A stretch of DNA of 64,000 nucleotides from Acidobacteriota bacterium (GTDB lineage: Bacteria > Acidobacteriota > Thermoanaerobaculia > Multivoradales > Multivoraceae). Position numbers and translations under genes: made by a program. Positions within the stretch are counted from its first letter, which is position 1. Every line of letters begins with the position of its first letter. The notes under the pieces were generated by a model. It was given only the letters and a program-made list of their open reading frames with translations, searched no databases and had not been told where the DNA came from. The DNA lies in the NCBI GenBank assembly GCA_003388555.1, contig QQVD01000048.1, positions 124,001-188,000 of the forward strand, in the 5' to 3' direction. Shown one piece after another: positions 25,416 to 53,802 of the stretch.

Positions 25416-26597
25416 ATGCGTGAAGCCGTCATCGTCTCCACCGCCCGCACCGGTCTCGCCAAGTCGCACCGTGGCGGATTCAACATCACCCCCGGCGTCA
25501 CCATGGCGGGACACGCCGTGAAACACGCCATCGAGCGCGCCGGCGTCGAGCCGGCCGAGGTCGAGGAGGTGGTGATCGGTTGCGGCACGCCGCAGGGCTC
25601 GACCGGCAACAACGTCGGCCGGCTGGCGGCGCTCAAGGCCGGCTGTCCGGTGACCACGTCTGGCGTCACGGTGAGCCGCCACTGTTCGTCGGGCCTCAAC
25701 GCGGTGGCGACAGCGGCGGGGCGCATCCTCAACGACGGAGTGCCGATCGCGGTCGCCGGCGGCGTCGAGTCGATCTCGCTGATGCAGCCCGGCGGTCCGT
25801 TCCCGCACGCCGTCGACGAGGAGCTGTTCGCGCAGTACCCGGGCCTGATGATGCCGATGATCGAGACCGCTGACGTCGTCGCCGAGCGCTACGGCGTGTC
25901 GCGGCAGTACCAGGACGAGTACGCGCTGCAGAGCCAGCAGCGCATCGCGGCGGCCCAGGAGGCGGGCAAGTTCGAGCACGAGATCGTGCCGATGCAGACC
26001 ACCATGCTGTTCACCGACAAGGAGACCGGCGAGAGCAAGGAGATCCCCTACACGGTGGATCGCGACGAGTGCAACCGGCCCAACACCACGCTGGAGGGCC
26101 TCAGCAGGCTGCCGCCGGTGCGTGGGCCGGAGCAGTACATCACCGCCGGCAACGCCTCGCAGCTCTCCGACGGTGCCGCGGCGCTGGTGCTGATGGAGGC
26201 CAAGGAGGCCGAGCGCCGCGGCCTCGAGCCGCTCGGCGCCTTCCGCGGCTTCGCGGTCGCCGGCTGCGAGCCCGACGAGATGGGCATCGGCCCGATCTAC
26301 GCCGTTCCGCGGCTGCTCGAGCGCGCCAGCAAGAAGATCGAGGACATCGAGCTGTGGGAGCTCAACGAGGCGTTCGCCAGCCAGTGCCTCTACTGCCGCG
26401 ACCAGCTCGGCATCGACAACGAGATCTACAACGTCAACGGCGGCTCGATCGCCATCGGCCACCCGTTCGGCATGACCGGCGCCCGCTGCACCGGCCACCT
26501 GCTGCTCGAGGGCAGACGTCGCGGCGCCAAGTGGGGCGTGGTGACGATGTGCATCGGCGGTGGCCAGGGCGCCGCCGGCCTGTTCGAGATCTTCTGA
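25416..26597 (+). CDS. Acetyl-CoA C-acyltransferase (thiolase)
   Basis: [68 protein letters not shown]. Confidence 0.93.
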
Positions 26598-26601
26598 CCA
26601 A

Positions 26602-26877
26602 AGGAGCCCGTGGTGAAACCCCCGTGGAGCTGAGCGCAGGGATCTGCGGTTCCTGGCCAGGCGTCGCCGACGAAGGCGATGCTGGAGCATCGCCGAGAAG
26701 GTGCAACGAAGCCAGGGACCGCAAACCCCTGCGCCGCAGGCGGTTGGGCGGCGTTGGCCCGTCTGACGCGTTGCTCTCGCTCCACGATGGCACCGCATCG
26801 CAGTCGCTCGAGACGCCACGTCATCCGAGGCCAACGGCGCTCCAACTCAGCCCGCGCGGGTTTCACCACGGGCTCCT
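26602..26877. repeat. Multi-branched inverted-repeat element (candidate structured RNA or MITE-like element)
   Basis: 20-bp perfect terminal inverted repeat (26602-26621/26858-26877); nested 24-nt arms with 21/24 identity to reverse complement (26634-26657/26711-26734); 8-bp GGCGATGC-TGGA-GCATCGCC hairpin (26675-26694); 11/12 arm pair (26748-26759/26829-26840). Confidence 0.85.
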
Positions 26878-26901
26878 AGGGCGCTGCGGGACTCGCCGCC
26901 G

Positions 26902-27390
26902 GTGCCGATCAGGGTGAAGGCGCGGTTGGGTGCGCGCCGTGACCTGTCGTCGATCGGGTGGTGGCGATTCGTCTGGATCCTGGCGGCGGTCGAGGTCCTG
27001 GCACTGCTCTACTTCGGCCATTGGGCGGCAGGGCTGGCGCAGGCCTCTGACCTGGTCTTGCAGGCGCGCTGGTCGTCGCGGTCCACCGCCGAGCTCTGGT
27101 CGGCGGTGCGCTGGGTCAACGTGATCGCGGCGCTCGCTCTGTGGCTCGCTTCGCCACGCGCCGGTTCCCGGCGGCGCCGAGAGCGCGAGAGCTGGCCGCT
27201 GGTCGGCTGGGTCGGTCTCCTCCTCACGCTCTCCCTGGCGACGAAGGCCCTGCAGCGGACGGAGCCCGCCCTGCGCATCGACCGTGTGATCGACTGTCGG
27301 GTCGATCCGTGTCGCGAGTTGACCGCCACCGAGGCGCACGGTGATGGCGAGGTGCGGAACGGCGGCGGCTTCGAGGAGGATCTTCGATGA
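26902..27390 (+). CDS. Small membrane protein of unknown function
   Basis: 3-4 TM helices; overlaps the enoyl-CoA hydratase start by 4 nt; GTG start. Confidence 0.6.
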   Translation: MPIRVKARLGARRDLSSIGWWRFVWILAAVEVLALLYFGHWAAGLAQASDLVLQARWSSRSTAELWSAVRWVNVIAALALWLASPRAGSRRRRERESWPLVGWVGLLLTLSLATKALQRTEPALRIDRVIDCRVDPCRELTATEAHGDGEVRNGGGFEEDLR

Positions 27391-28172
27391 GTGAGCCCGT
27401 GGTGCTGTACGAGGAGAACGACCACGTCGCGGTGCTGACCCTGAACCGGCCGCAGGCGAAGAACGCGCTGACCTACGAGGTCTACGCCGAGCTCGAGGAC
27501 CGGGTGCGCGCCTGCACCGCGCGCTGCCTGATCGTCACCGGCGCCGGCGGGGCGTTCTGCGCCGGCGACGATCTGAAGGAGATCCTCGGCTCGCAGCGCG
27601 GTGCGCCGCCGGAGGCCGTGGCTCGCTCTCGCGCCACCGGCGGCCTGACCCCGGCCGCCGACGCGCTCCTGCACACCGACGTGCCGGTGATCGCCGCGGT
27701 CGGCGGCGCCGCGGTGGGCTGGGGCATGGAGCTGGCGCTGATGGCCGACATCCGCATCGCCTCGAGCGCGGCGCGCTTCGGCGAGCTCTTCGTGCTGCGC
27801 GGCCTGTGCTGCGACGCGCCGGGCCTCGGCCGCCTCGCGTCGCTGGTCGGCCGCGAGCGCGCCGCCGAGCTGCTGTTCACCGGCGAGATCATCGATGCGG
27901 CGAGAGCGCTGGAGATCGGCCTGGTGTCGCGGGCGGTCGAGCCGGACCAGCTCATGCCGGCCGCTCACGAGCTGGCGGGCAGGATCGCTGCCAACCCGCC
28001 GCTCGCCGTGCAGGCGCTCAAGGCCGGGCTGCGCCGCACCCTCGATCCCGACTGGCGCGATACCGGCCGCTGGGCGATCGAGCAGATCCAGCGGCTGCGC
28101 CAGACCGAGGACTGCCGTGAGGGCGTGCAGGCGTTCCTCGAGAAGCGGCAGCCGCGCTACGTCGGGCGCTGA
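27387..28172 (+). CDS. Enoyl-CoA hydratase/isomerase family protein
   Basis: VAVLTLNRPQAKNALTYEVYAEL, VTGAGGAFCAGDDLKEI, GAAVGWGMELALMADIRIAS. Confidence 0.9.
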   Translation: MSEPVVLYEENDHVAVLTLNRPQAKNALTYEVYAELEDRVRACTARCLIVTGAGGAFCAGDDLKEILGSQRGAPPEAVARSRATGGLTPAADALLHTDVPVIAAVGGAAVGWGMELALMADIRIASSAARFGELFVLRGLCCDAPGLGRLASLVGRERAAELLFTGEIIDAARALEIGLVSRAVEPDQLMPAAHELAGRIAANPPLAVQALKAGLRRTLDPDWRDTGRWAIEQIQRLRQTEDCREGVQAFLEKRQPRYVGR

Positions 28173-46846: not shown

Positions 46847-47938
46847 CTAGCGCTGCGAGCGCTCCACCAGGACGCCGGCGTGCTCGAGGCTTTCGAGGGC
46901 GGAGCGGATTGCCGTGTTGATGCGCAGGTTGACGTCCTCCCAGTCGACCCTGGCAAGGCTCTCCTGCACGCTGAGCTCGAGATCGGCGTTGAGCTGCTCC
47001 CAGTCGACCTCGTCCATCGAGCGCTCGATCTCGGCGCCGATCTCCTCCCAGTCGACCGCCTCGAGCGCTCTCTCGATCTCCTCGCCGACCTGCTCCCACT
47101 CCTCCCGGCTCAGGTCGCCCTCTTCGAAGCGCTCTCCGAAGCGCTCGCCGAGATCTTCGAAGCGGGCTCCGAACTGCTCGCCCCACTCCGCCATGCGCTC
47201 GCCGAACTGCTCGCCCCACTCGGCCCAGCGCTCGCCGAACTGCTCGCCCCATTCCGCCCAGCGCTCGCCCCACTCCTCGCCGTGCTCGGCCCACGCCTCG
47301 CCGCGGGCCTCCCACTCCTCGCCCATCGCCTCGAAGCGCTCGGCCATCTGCTCGCCGAATCGCTCGCCCCACTCCTCCCACTCCTCGTCGGTCCAGTCGG
47401 CGCGGGTGGAATCGCCGAAGTCGCCGATCGAGGCGGCCCAGTCGTCGCTGCGCCCGGCGAGGGTCACCGACTCCTGGCGGAATCGCCCCTTGCGGTAGAA
47501 GCCGAGCGCCACCGTGGTGTCGGCGCCGGCATCGCGGATCCGGCGCGCCAGCTGCGAGGCCGAAGCGACCTCCTCGCCGTCGAAGGAGACGATCACGTCA
47601 CCGGCCCGCAGTCCCGAGCGCTCGGCGGGGGAGTCGGCCTCGACCTCGTCGACGAGCACCCCGACGCCGGCCGGGACCTCGAAGGTCTCTCGCAGCTGAT
47701 CGCTCATCGTGGTGACCCCGACGCCGAGGAAGCCGCGGTCGGTGCGGGTCTCGTAGCTCGAGGTCGCCGGCGCCGCCGCCAGTGCCACGGTGGGGAGGGG
47801 CGCCGGCTGGACGGCGCCGGTCGGTGCGGTCGTCGCCACGGTCACCGGGCCGGAGGGCCGGGCGTCGGCGTCGTCGTGGAGCAGCGCCACGGCGCCGAAG
47901 ATGGCGGCGAAGACGAACAGGCAGCGGAAGCACTTCAT
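46847..47938 (-). CDS. Secreted PDZ-domain protein with Trp/Glu-rich 11-residue repeats
   Basis: PDZ: GFLGVGVTTMSDQLRETFEVPAGVGVLVDEVEADSPAERSGLRAGDVIVSFDGEEV; repeats FGERWAEWGEQ x3-5; later VDWE repeats. Confidence 0.85.
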   Translation of the reverse strand: MKCFRCLFVFAAIFGAVALLHDDADARPSGPVTVATTAPTGAVQPAPLPTVALAAAPATSSYETRTDRGFLGVGVTTMSDQLRETFEVPAGVGVLVDEVEADSPAERSGLRAGDVIVSFDGEEVASASQLARRIRDAGADTTVALGFYRKGRFRQESVTLAGRSDDWAASIGDFGDSTRADWTDEEWEEWGERFGEQMAERFEAMGEEWEARGEAWAEHGEEWGERWAEWGEQFGERWAEWGEQFGERMAEWGEQFGARFEDLGERFGERFEEGDLSREEWEQVGEEIERALEAVDWEEIGAEIERSMDEVDWEQLNADLELSVQESLARVDWEDVNLRINTAIRSALESLEHAGVLVERSQR

Positions 47939-52821: not shown

Positions 52822-52833
52822 GGGAAGGGGCTC

Positions 52834-52865
52834 GGGGCTAGGGGTTGGGGGATAGGGGTTAGGGG
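52834..52865. repeat. G-rich heptanucleotide repeat (ggggcta/ggggttg/ggggata/ggggtta)
   Basis: Four 7-bp units plus gggg read directly. Confidence 0.9.
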
Positions 52866-52946
52866 CAGAAGCAGAAGGCAGAAGCAGAAGGCAGAAGGCA
52901 GAAGGCAGAAGGCAGAAGGCAGAAGGCAGAAGGCAGAAGGCAGAGG
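52866..52946. repeat. cagaagg heptanucleotide tandem array
   Basis: About 12 units, the eight at 52885-52940 perfect. Confidence 0.95.
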
Positions 52947-53099
52947 CGGAGCAAGTCGGCTCAGTGGGTGAAGGCTCGAAATCTGGACGTCCATCTGGCT
53001 CGACAGCGTGGTCGCCGCTGGAGCCCAGCTGCGCTTCAACCGCACGATGACCTTCGTCCCTCAGTCCCAGGTGCTCCCTCGACTCTTCCTTCTACCCTC

Positions 53100-53139
<40 letters not shown>

Positions 53140-53173
53140 GTGCCCTTTCCCTTTTCCCTAGTCCCTTGTCCCT

Positions 53174-53313
53174 CCCTGACCCCCAACCCCTGACCCCCAA
53201 CCCCCAACCCCTGACCCCCAACCCCCAACCCCTGACCCCCAACCCCTGACCCCCAACCCCTATCCCCCAACCCCTGACCCCCAACCCCTATCCCCCAACC
53301 CCTATCCCCCAAC
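53174..53313. repeat. C-rich heptanucleotide array (ccctgac/ccccaac/ccctatc), 20 units
   Basis: Twenty consecutive 7-bp units of three types. Confidence 0.95.
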
Positions 53314-53802
53314 CCCTTCCGCCCACCCGTGGCCCCGGAAGTGGATCCCGGACTCGGCGATGAGCTGCTGGTAGACCCGCTCGAGCTCGGGCTCGTAGTC
53401 CATCGGCTCTTCGAAGACGATCTCGCGGATGCCGGCCTGGATCGCCTCCTTGGCGCAGCCGAAGCAGGGCCGCAGGGTCGAGTAGAGGGAGCCTCCCTGG
53501 GTGGCGTTGCCATGCCGTGCCGCGAGCAGGAAGGCGTTCTGCTCGGCGTGCACGCAGATGCAGGTGTCGTAGCCGGCCCCGTGCGGCGCCTTCGAGGCGC
53601 ACCGCAGACAGCCGCCTTCGTTGCAGTTGCGCACTCCCATCGGGGTGCCGTTGTAGCCGGTCGAGATGATCGAGCGCTCGACCACGATGAGCGCGCCGAC
53701 CTGTCGCCGTGAGCAGTTCGACCGCGCCTTCACCGCGTGGGCGATCGACATGTAGTAGGTGTCCCAGTCGGGACGGTGGCCAGGATCTGGAACGACGGAC
53801 AT
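53302..53802 (-). CDS. dCMP/deoxycytidylate deaminase family protein (ComEB-like)
   Basis: VGALIVVERSIISTGYNGTP, CVHAEQNAFL, TLRPCFGCAKEAIQAGI. Confidence 0.92.
   Translation of the reverse strand: MSVVPDPGHRPDWDTYYMSIAHAVKARSNCSRRQVGALIVVERSIISTGYNGTPMGVRNCNEGGCLRCASKAPHGAGYDTCICVHAEQNAFLLAARHGNATQGGSLYSTLRPCFGCAKEAIQAGIREIVFEEPMDYEPELERVYQQLIAESGIHFRGHGWAEGVGG

Follow-up and report, generated by a model that had tools for sequence, protein, structure and literature searches.

The palindromic DNA directly behind a thiolase gene in an Acidobacteriota genome is very probably best described as a non-autonomous, transposase-less MITE, composed of two terminal inverted repeats (TIRs) and two inverted 83-nt cores, located at CTAG and putatively mobilized by an IS1182-type transposase. 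By anatomy, the element is a MITE. It is a parasitic repeat whose structure is conserved, rather than a regulator of thiolase. Bacterial MITEs are usually regarded as degenerate insertion sequences (IS) that are important through their ends alone. In this family, compensatory helices and near-invariant internal loops point to selection on the interior and make the case for a structured, transposon-borne module.

Position and anatomy of the element

The window, meaning the whole 64-kb stretch of DNA analysed, is C2:124001-188000 of a 6.8-Mb, 74-contig genome (G000). The element starts five nucleotides after the thiolase stop codon. The element proper is palindromic and 272 bp long, with two arms and a perfect 20-bp TIR. 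Its features, in window positions, are as follows.

25416-26597, plus strand: upstream host gene, thiolase (acetyl-CoA acyltransferase; Pfam Thiolase_N and Thiolase_C)
26600-26603, no strand: left flank AAAG, the degraded counterpart of the CTAG found here in sister copies
26602-26627, plus strand: left TIR, 26 nt, the first 20 perfect (repeat search)
26604-26875, no strand: mobile element proper, subfamily A, 272 bp; limits set by comparison with copy L002, which has CTAG flanking both of its ends
26645-26728, plus strand: structured core of arm 1, 89.6 bits to model R1
26675-26694, plus strand: apical hairpin of arm 1, GGCGATGC-TGGA-GCATCGCC
26749-26833, minus strand: structured core of arm 2, an inverted copy of the arm-1 module, 68.2 bits
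26785-26800, minus strand: apical hairpin of arm 2, CGATG/CATCG
26852-26877, minus strand: right TIR (repeat search)
26876-26879, no strand: right flank CTAG, the target signature, a word depleted in the window
27387-28172, plus strand: downstream host gene, enoyl-CoA hydratase/isomerase (Pfam ECH_1)

The original prediction had described much of this anatomy. Its perfect 20-bp TIR was found at 26602-26621 and 26858-26877, and the repeat search extends it to 26 nt at 92%. The TGGA-loop hairpin of arm 1 was recovered, as were the halves that close arm 2 (GCGGCGTTGGCC/GGCCAACGGCGC) and its inner CGATG/CATCG hairpin. Both arms are one 83-nt core in inverted orientation, and a CAACG motif is found in each arm, 97-102 bp in from the end. 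The folding energy has a z-score of -10.8 on the plus strand and -11.7 on the minus strand, and none of 200 dinucleotide shuffles folded as well. There is no room for a transposase gene in the 272-bp element or in the 157-bp single-core form described below.

Copies in the host genome and insertions into genes

No second copy of the element was found within the 64-kb window, as had been noted before. The implication that the element has no family fails, since a search of the genome, which the original prediction had proposed, returned many copies with conserved termini. A full copy that is 97% identical lies at C11:150447-150725. Elsewhere in the genome are about 20 further copies, halves, and fragments, which fall into two subfamilies with different ends. 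Subfamily B, whose ends are GGGCTTGCTGAARAAG, is about 64-69% identical to the window copy over the subfamily B length. Among themselves, the subfamily B copies share 81-98% identity, so both subfamilies contain fairly recent copies.

One copy, at C49:5041-5426, is rearranged. This locus (L003/L004) carries an internal duplication of ~107 bp with its junction at a CCACGATGG / ATCGTGG palindrome, a pattern that template switching at a hairpin would produce.

Two copies in the host genome are inside genes. The C11 copy sits in frame in a small gene, and removal of 276 bp yields a 107-aa product, residues 1-106 of which align with an element-free Neorhizobium homologue at 67% identity. A weaker homologue of this product is annotated as an antibiotic biosynthesis monooxygenase. 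The C23 copy, a member of subfamily B, stops an open reading frame after a few codons, and its removal gives a 574-aa frame that resembles a nucleobase permease, a name that rests on sequence motifs read by eye. Insertion appears to be precise, judging from the element-free homologue, which aligns in one piece across the site, and from the restored permease frame. The length of the insert modulo 3 differs between copies, and in-frame insertion is a single case.

Of the two identities originally proposed, structured RNA or MITE/REP-like element, the dispersed copies, conserved termini, CTAG ends, and clean insertions into genes bear out the MITE.

The CTAG target site

CTAG is depleted in the window, with 17 occurrences against 66 expected from trinucleotide counts. 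In the first set of complete copies, 15 of 24 have CTAG on both sides. The same is true of most copies in genome G032 for which both ends were found, and of every end found in G099. Other family members have TTAG, TAA, or TTA at their ends. Ends that differ from CTAG nearly always retain the inner AG/CT, and their outer two bases vary. For the window copy, a target-site duplication had been reported as absent; this claim does not stand as it was made, as the right end is followed by CTAG, the left end is preceded by AAAG, and the majority of sister copies are flanked by CTAG at either end. Since CTAG is a palindrome and its inner AG/CT persists at divergent ends, a 4-bp duplication with later decay and an insertion between CT and AG of a palindromic target, without duplication, are both possible. 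In the proposed mechanism, TIR-bounded DNA would be cut or copied and then placed into palindromic CTAG/YTAR sites. Insertion at CTAG would often reuse the TAG stop codon of a gene, leaving the gene intact.

Among the gene flanks examined in G032 and G099, 22 have a TAG stop codon exactly at the element. Siting at stop codons follows from the CTAG target, which allows the element to settle there without harm to genes. These 22 flanks, the many copies near gene 3' ends, the strong hairpin, and the position of the window copy would also suit a bidirectional transcription terminator that has been domesticated behind the thiolase gene. A terminator is quite improbable, because the CTAG target already explains the siting at stop codons and the C11 and C23 copies lie inside genes. 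Termination may be a side effect of the element.

Two loci, L276 and L297, contain tandem pairs of elements with one common CTAG (or CTTAG) junction. In each pair, one copy has inserted into the target site that an earlier one had used.

Distribution across the order and phylum

The covariance model of the core was built from 29 sequences and has 83 positions. Core matches were found in 43 of 72 genomes of the order (E<=1e-3) and in 64 of 396 genomes of the phylum (E<=1e-6), with the best E-values near 1e-21. In one sister genus, most of the 21 genomes have no core match or a weak one. The element was not found in the plasmid and phage collections.

The family has two forms, inverted dimers of ~272 bp and single-core elements of ~157 bp, and their TIRs are swapped. 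G032 and G057, for example, carry 157-bp single-core elements with other TIRs. TIRs and CTAG/YTAR ends recur in most of the elements inspected in distant families, and TIR length across the family reaches 30+ bp. Copies that consist of TIRs without a core, 52-88 bp long, occur in G289 (L238, L246, and L248) and in G099 (L225); the core is not strictly needed for presence. G099 contains about 30 near-identical copies. Across dozens of genera, the interior is conserved and the ends are exchanged. Copies are often at contig ends. The element contributes visibly to the repeat content of these genomes and tends to break their assemblies.

Covariation and conserved loops in the core

A covariance model from homologues had been suggested by the original prediction, and the helices do covary. 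In an alignment of 51 matches, nearly all of them sequences absent from model building, 87% of cells pair and 23 of the 26 core pairs have two-sided changes. The covariation score of this alignment, which was fitted to the structure of the model and so favours that structure, is 0.525, compared with 0.142 when shuffled and at most 0.09 (0.088) with slid partners. The 112-match alignment, fitted in the same way and inclusive of the model's own sequences, gives 25 of 26 pairs and a score of 0.569 versus 0.156. A MAFFT alignment made without the structure has a covariation of 0.438 versus 0.182. Of the structured RNA in the early proposal, the structure survives in these compensatory changes, in a core that may act as RNA or as DNA. 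It does not survive as a feature of the thiolase locus, since the core moves along with the element and is not tied to the thiolase gene by synteny.

Conservation in the core is highest at the unpaired loops, and the stems drift. The loops are AGG, a CAA bulge, and GACGNA facing GAGGA; conservation is 88-100% for the CAA bulge and mostly above 83% for GAGGA and AGG. In the second loop, the C35-G92 pair covaries (57 CG and 17 GC of 78) amid conserved G and A, which could form tandem G-A pairs around it. The loops are the same in single-core elements.

Quasi-palindromes get corrected towards perfect symmetry, which creates paired changes without selection. As the arms are inverted copies of each other, the core of the MITE might be upheld merely by palindrome-templated mutation or by gene conversion between the arms and have no function. 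This is rather unlikely. Templated correction should erase loops, yet the unpaired, asymmetric loops are what is most conserved while the stems drift, and elements with a single core have identical loops. The compensatory changes could come partly from palindrome-templated repair; the conservation of the asymmetric loops argues against this as the source of all the covariation.

Single-core copies have no orientation bias relative to flanking genes, with 22 sense and 24 antisense in a count for which genes were called by a simple open reading frame and GC-position rule and in which a few loci recur. This argues against a cis-acting mRNA element, and not against a trans-acting RNA or a role as DNA. 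A structured RNA with a regulatory role in the thiolase transcript, such as a 3' UTR element, an attenuator, or a processed sRNA kept for gene control, would fit a very stable fold five nucleotides past a stop codon, with covarying helices and conserved internal loops. Such an RNA is extremely unlikely given the orientation count and the dozens of copies that sit beside unrelated genes, in this genome and others, and bring their TIRs and CTAG ends with them. It also has no credible counterpart in Rfam, where the element returned only chance matches far below cutoff.

Within the MITE, the core would owe its retention to a function of its own that depends on its structure, be it RNA or single-stranded or cruciform DNA. 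We infer this role because the core is common to elements with unrelated TIRs, was not found in the IS1182 elements examined, and is dispensable for presence, as the TIR-only copies show. A tentative extension, possible though doubtful, is that the core is a conserved functional domain of nucleic acid, either RNA or single-stranded DNA, marked by its GA-rich internal loop and the CAA bulge. Such a domain would serve the element or its host independently of the transposase and would have passed, across the phylum, from one MITE lineage to another despite their different TIRs. If so, the elements would be satellites of transposons with a conserved module of their own.

Candidate mobilization partners

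IS1182-family elements on two plasmids, one from Methylobacterium and one from Xanthobacter, sit at CTAG and have the CTAGGAGCCTGTCCGAGTAA TIR at either end. By annotation, another Methylobacterium plasmid shares this IS1182/CTAGGAGCCTGTCCGAGTAA arrangement. The plasmid transposase is an IS1182 equivalog (NCBIfam NF033551). With small variations, CTAGGAGCCTGTCCGAGTAA matches family TIRs in G189, G217, G262, G278, and others. A TIR common to the family and an IS1182 element was found for the GAGCCTGTCCGAGTA branch; the TIR of the window copy has no such match. Of 26 genomes that carry the element, 12 have IS1182-type transposase genes (PF05598), and some of these genes, in members of the phylum other than the host, are bordered by CTAG. 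None of the IS1182 copies and loci examined showed the core.

Mobilization by IS1182-type transposases is the best supported reading, because some TIRs match those of IS1182-family IS that are also at CTAG. An IS1182-type DDE transposase would act in trans by recognizing the TIRs. For the window copy itself, the partner can only be put forward as a candidate, because none was found in the host genome and the TIRs of subfamilies A and B match no IS in the plasmid collection. The host assembly has no PF01609 or PF05598 match, and no IS1182, IS5, or intact IS630 transposase was found in it. No autonomous copy with the exact TIR was found in G099 or G289, where only dimers, single-core copies, and the 52-88-bp TIR-only copies occur.

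An inverted dimer of one hairpin module with a short palindromic tag at its ends also resembles a REPIN or BIME, moved by a tyrosine transposase (RAYT, IS200/IS605-type); REP families have been described as paired palindromes moved by RAYTs (PMC3733652). This origin is very unlikely, as members of the family have long TIRs, up to 30+ bp, with CTAG flanking both ends and TIR identity with the DDE-type IS1182, and the GTAG tag that defines those REPs is absent from their ends.

Other candidate partners of the MITE were rejected. For IS630, G000 has one weak DDE_3 relic without matching TIRs, and the element-rich G029 and G032 have none. For IS5 (DUF4096), no match over the cut-off was found in 16 genomes. 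A Chlorobium plasmid match to the G032 TIR has no core and no annotated transposase nearby. Separately, locus L168 (G036:C168) has an apparent CRISPR-like array beside an intact IS630-type (DDE_3) transposase gene; the array shows only as repeated peptides in translation.

Comparison with known elements

No matching description was found in Rfam or in the literature searched, which covered few of the subscription journals. The closest likenesses are RUP in pneumococcus and Correia/NEMIS in Neisseria, which are also short, geneless, and dispersed, with TIRs, a target that contains TA, and strong folds. For RUP, the transposase of a resident IS has been proposed as the mover (PMC2229807). Unlike these, the present family has one core phylum-wide with unrelated TIRs, dimer and single-core forms, CTAG sites, and IS1182-type TIRs. 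IS1182-family IS share the CTAGGAGCCTGTCCGAGTAA TIR and the CTAG insertion site with some family members, and one member of that family, ISPse1, is listed as having 16/16 inverted repeats and 4-bp direct repeats (PMC3281130). In contrast to these IS, the element has no transposase gene, and its core is not found in the IS1182 copies examined.

Rickettsia palindromic elements are likewise palindromic and can insert in frame in protein genes (PMC2229807, PMC10969869). They are recognized by an open frame that is kept and by repeated in-frame insertion, whereas one in-frame case was found here. The Caulobacter CIR elements likewise have two hairpin arms and a linker, but are listed without a TIR and carry a GANTC motif (PMC2229807); this description sets them apart from the element. 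REP/REPIN (GTAG) and CGTC palindromes are likewise dispersed, dimer-forming, and in some cases intragenic (PMC3733652). They differ in being units of 20-40 bp with a GTAG or CGTC tag and an association with RAYTs, while the element has CTAG ends and long TIRs.

Other repeats in the window

Two other repetitive regions are in the window. Dense tandem repeats of 12, 33, and 66 bp occupy 46975-47369, which is probably a repetitive coding region. A simple-repeat cluster at 52826-53336 contains (GGCAGAA)12 at 52864-52944, (CT)19 at 53102-53139, and about 10 telomere-like CCCTAACCCCCAAC copies at 53174-53317. G-quadruplex or i-motif structures could in principle form in the repeats of this cluster.
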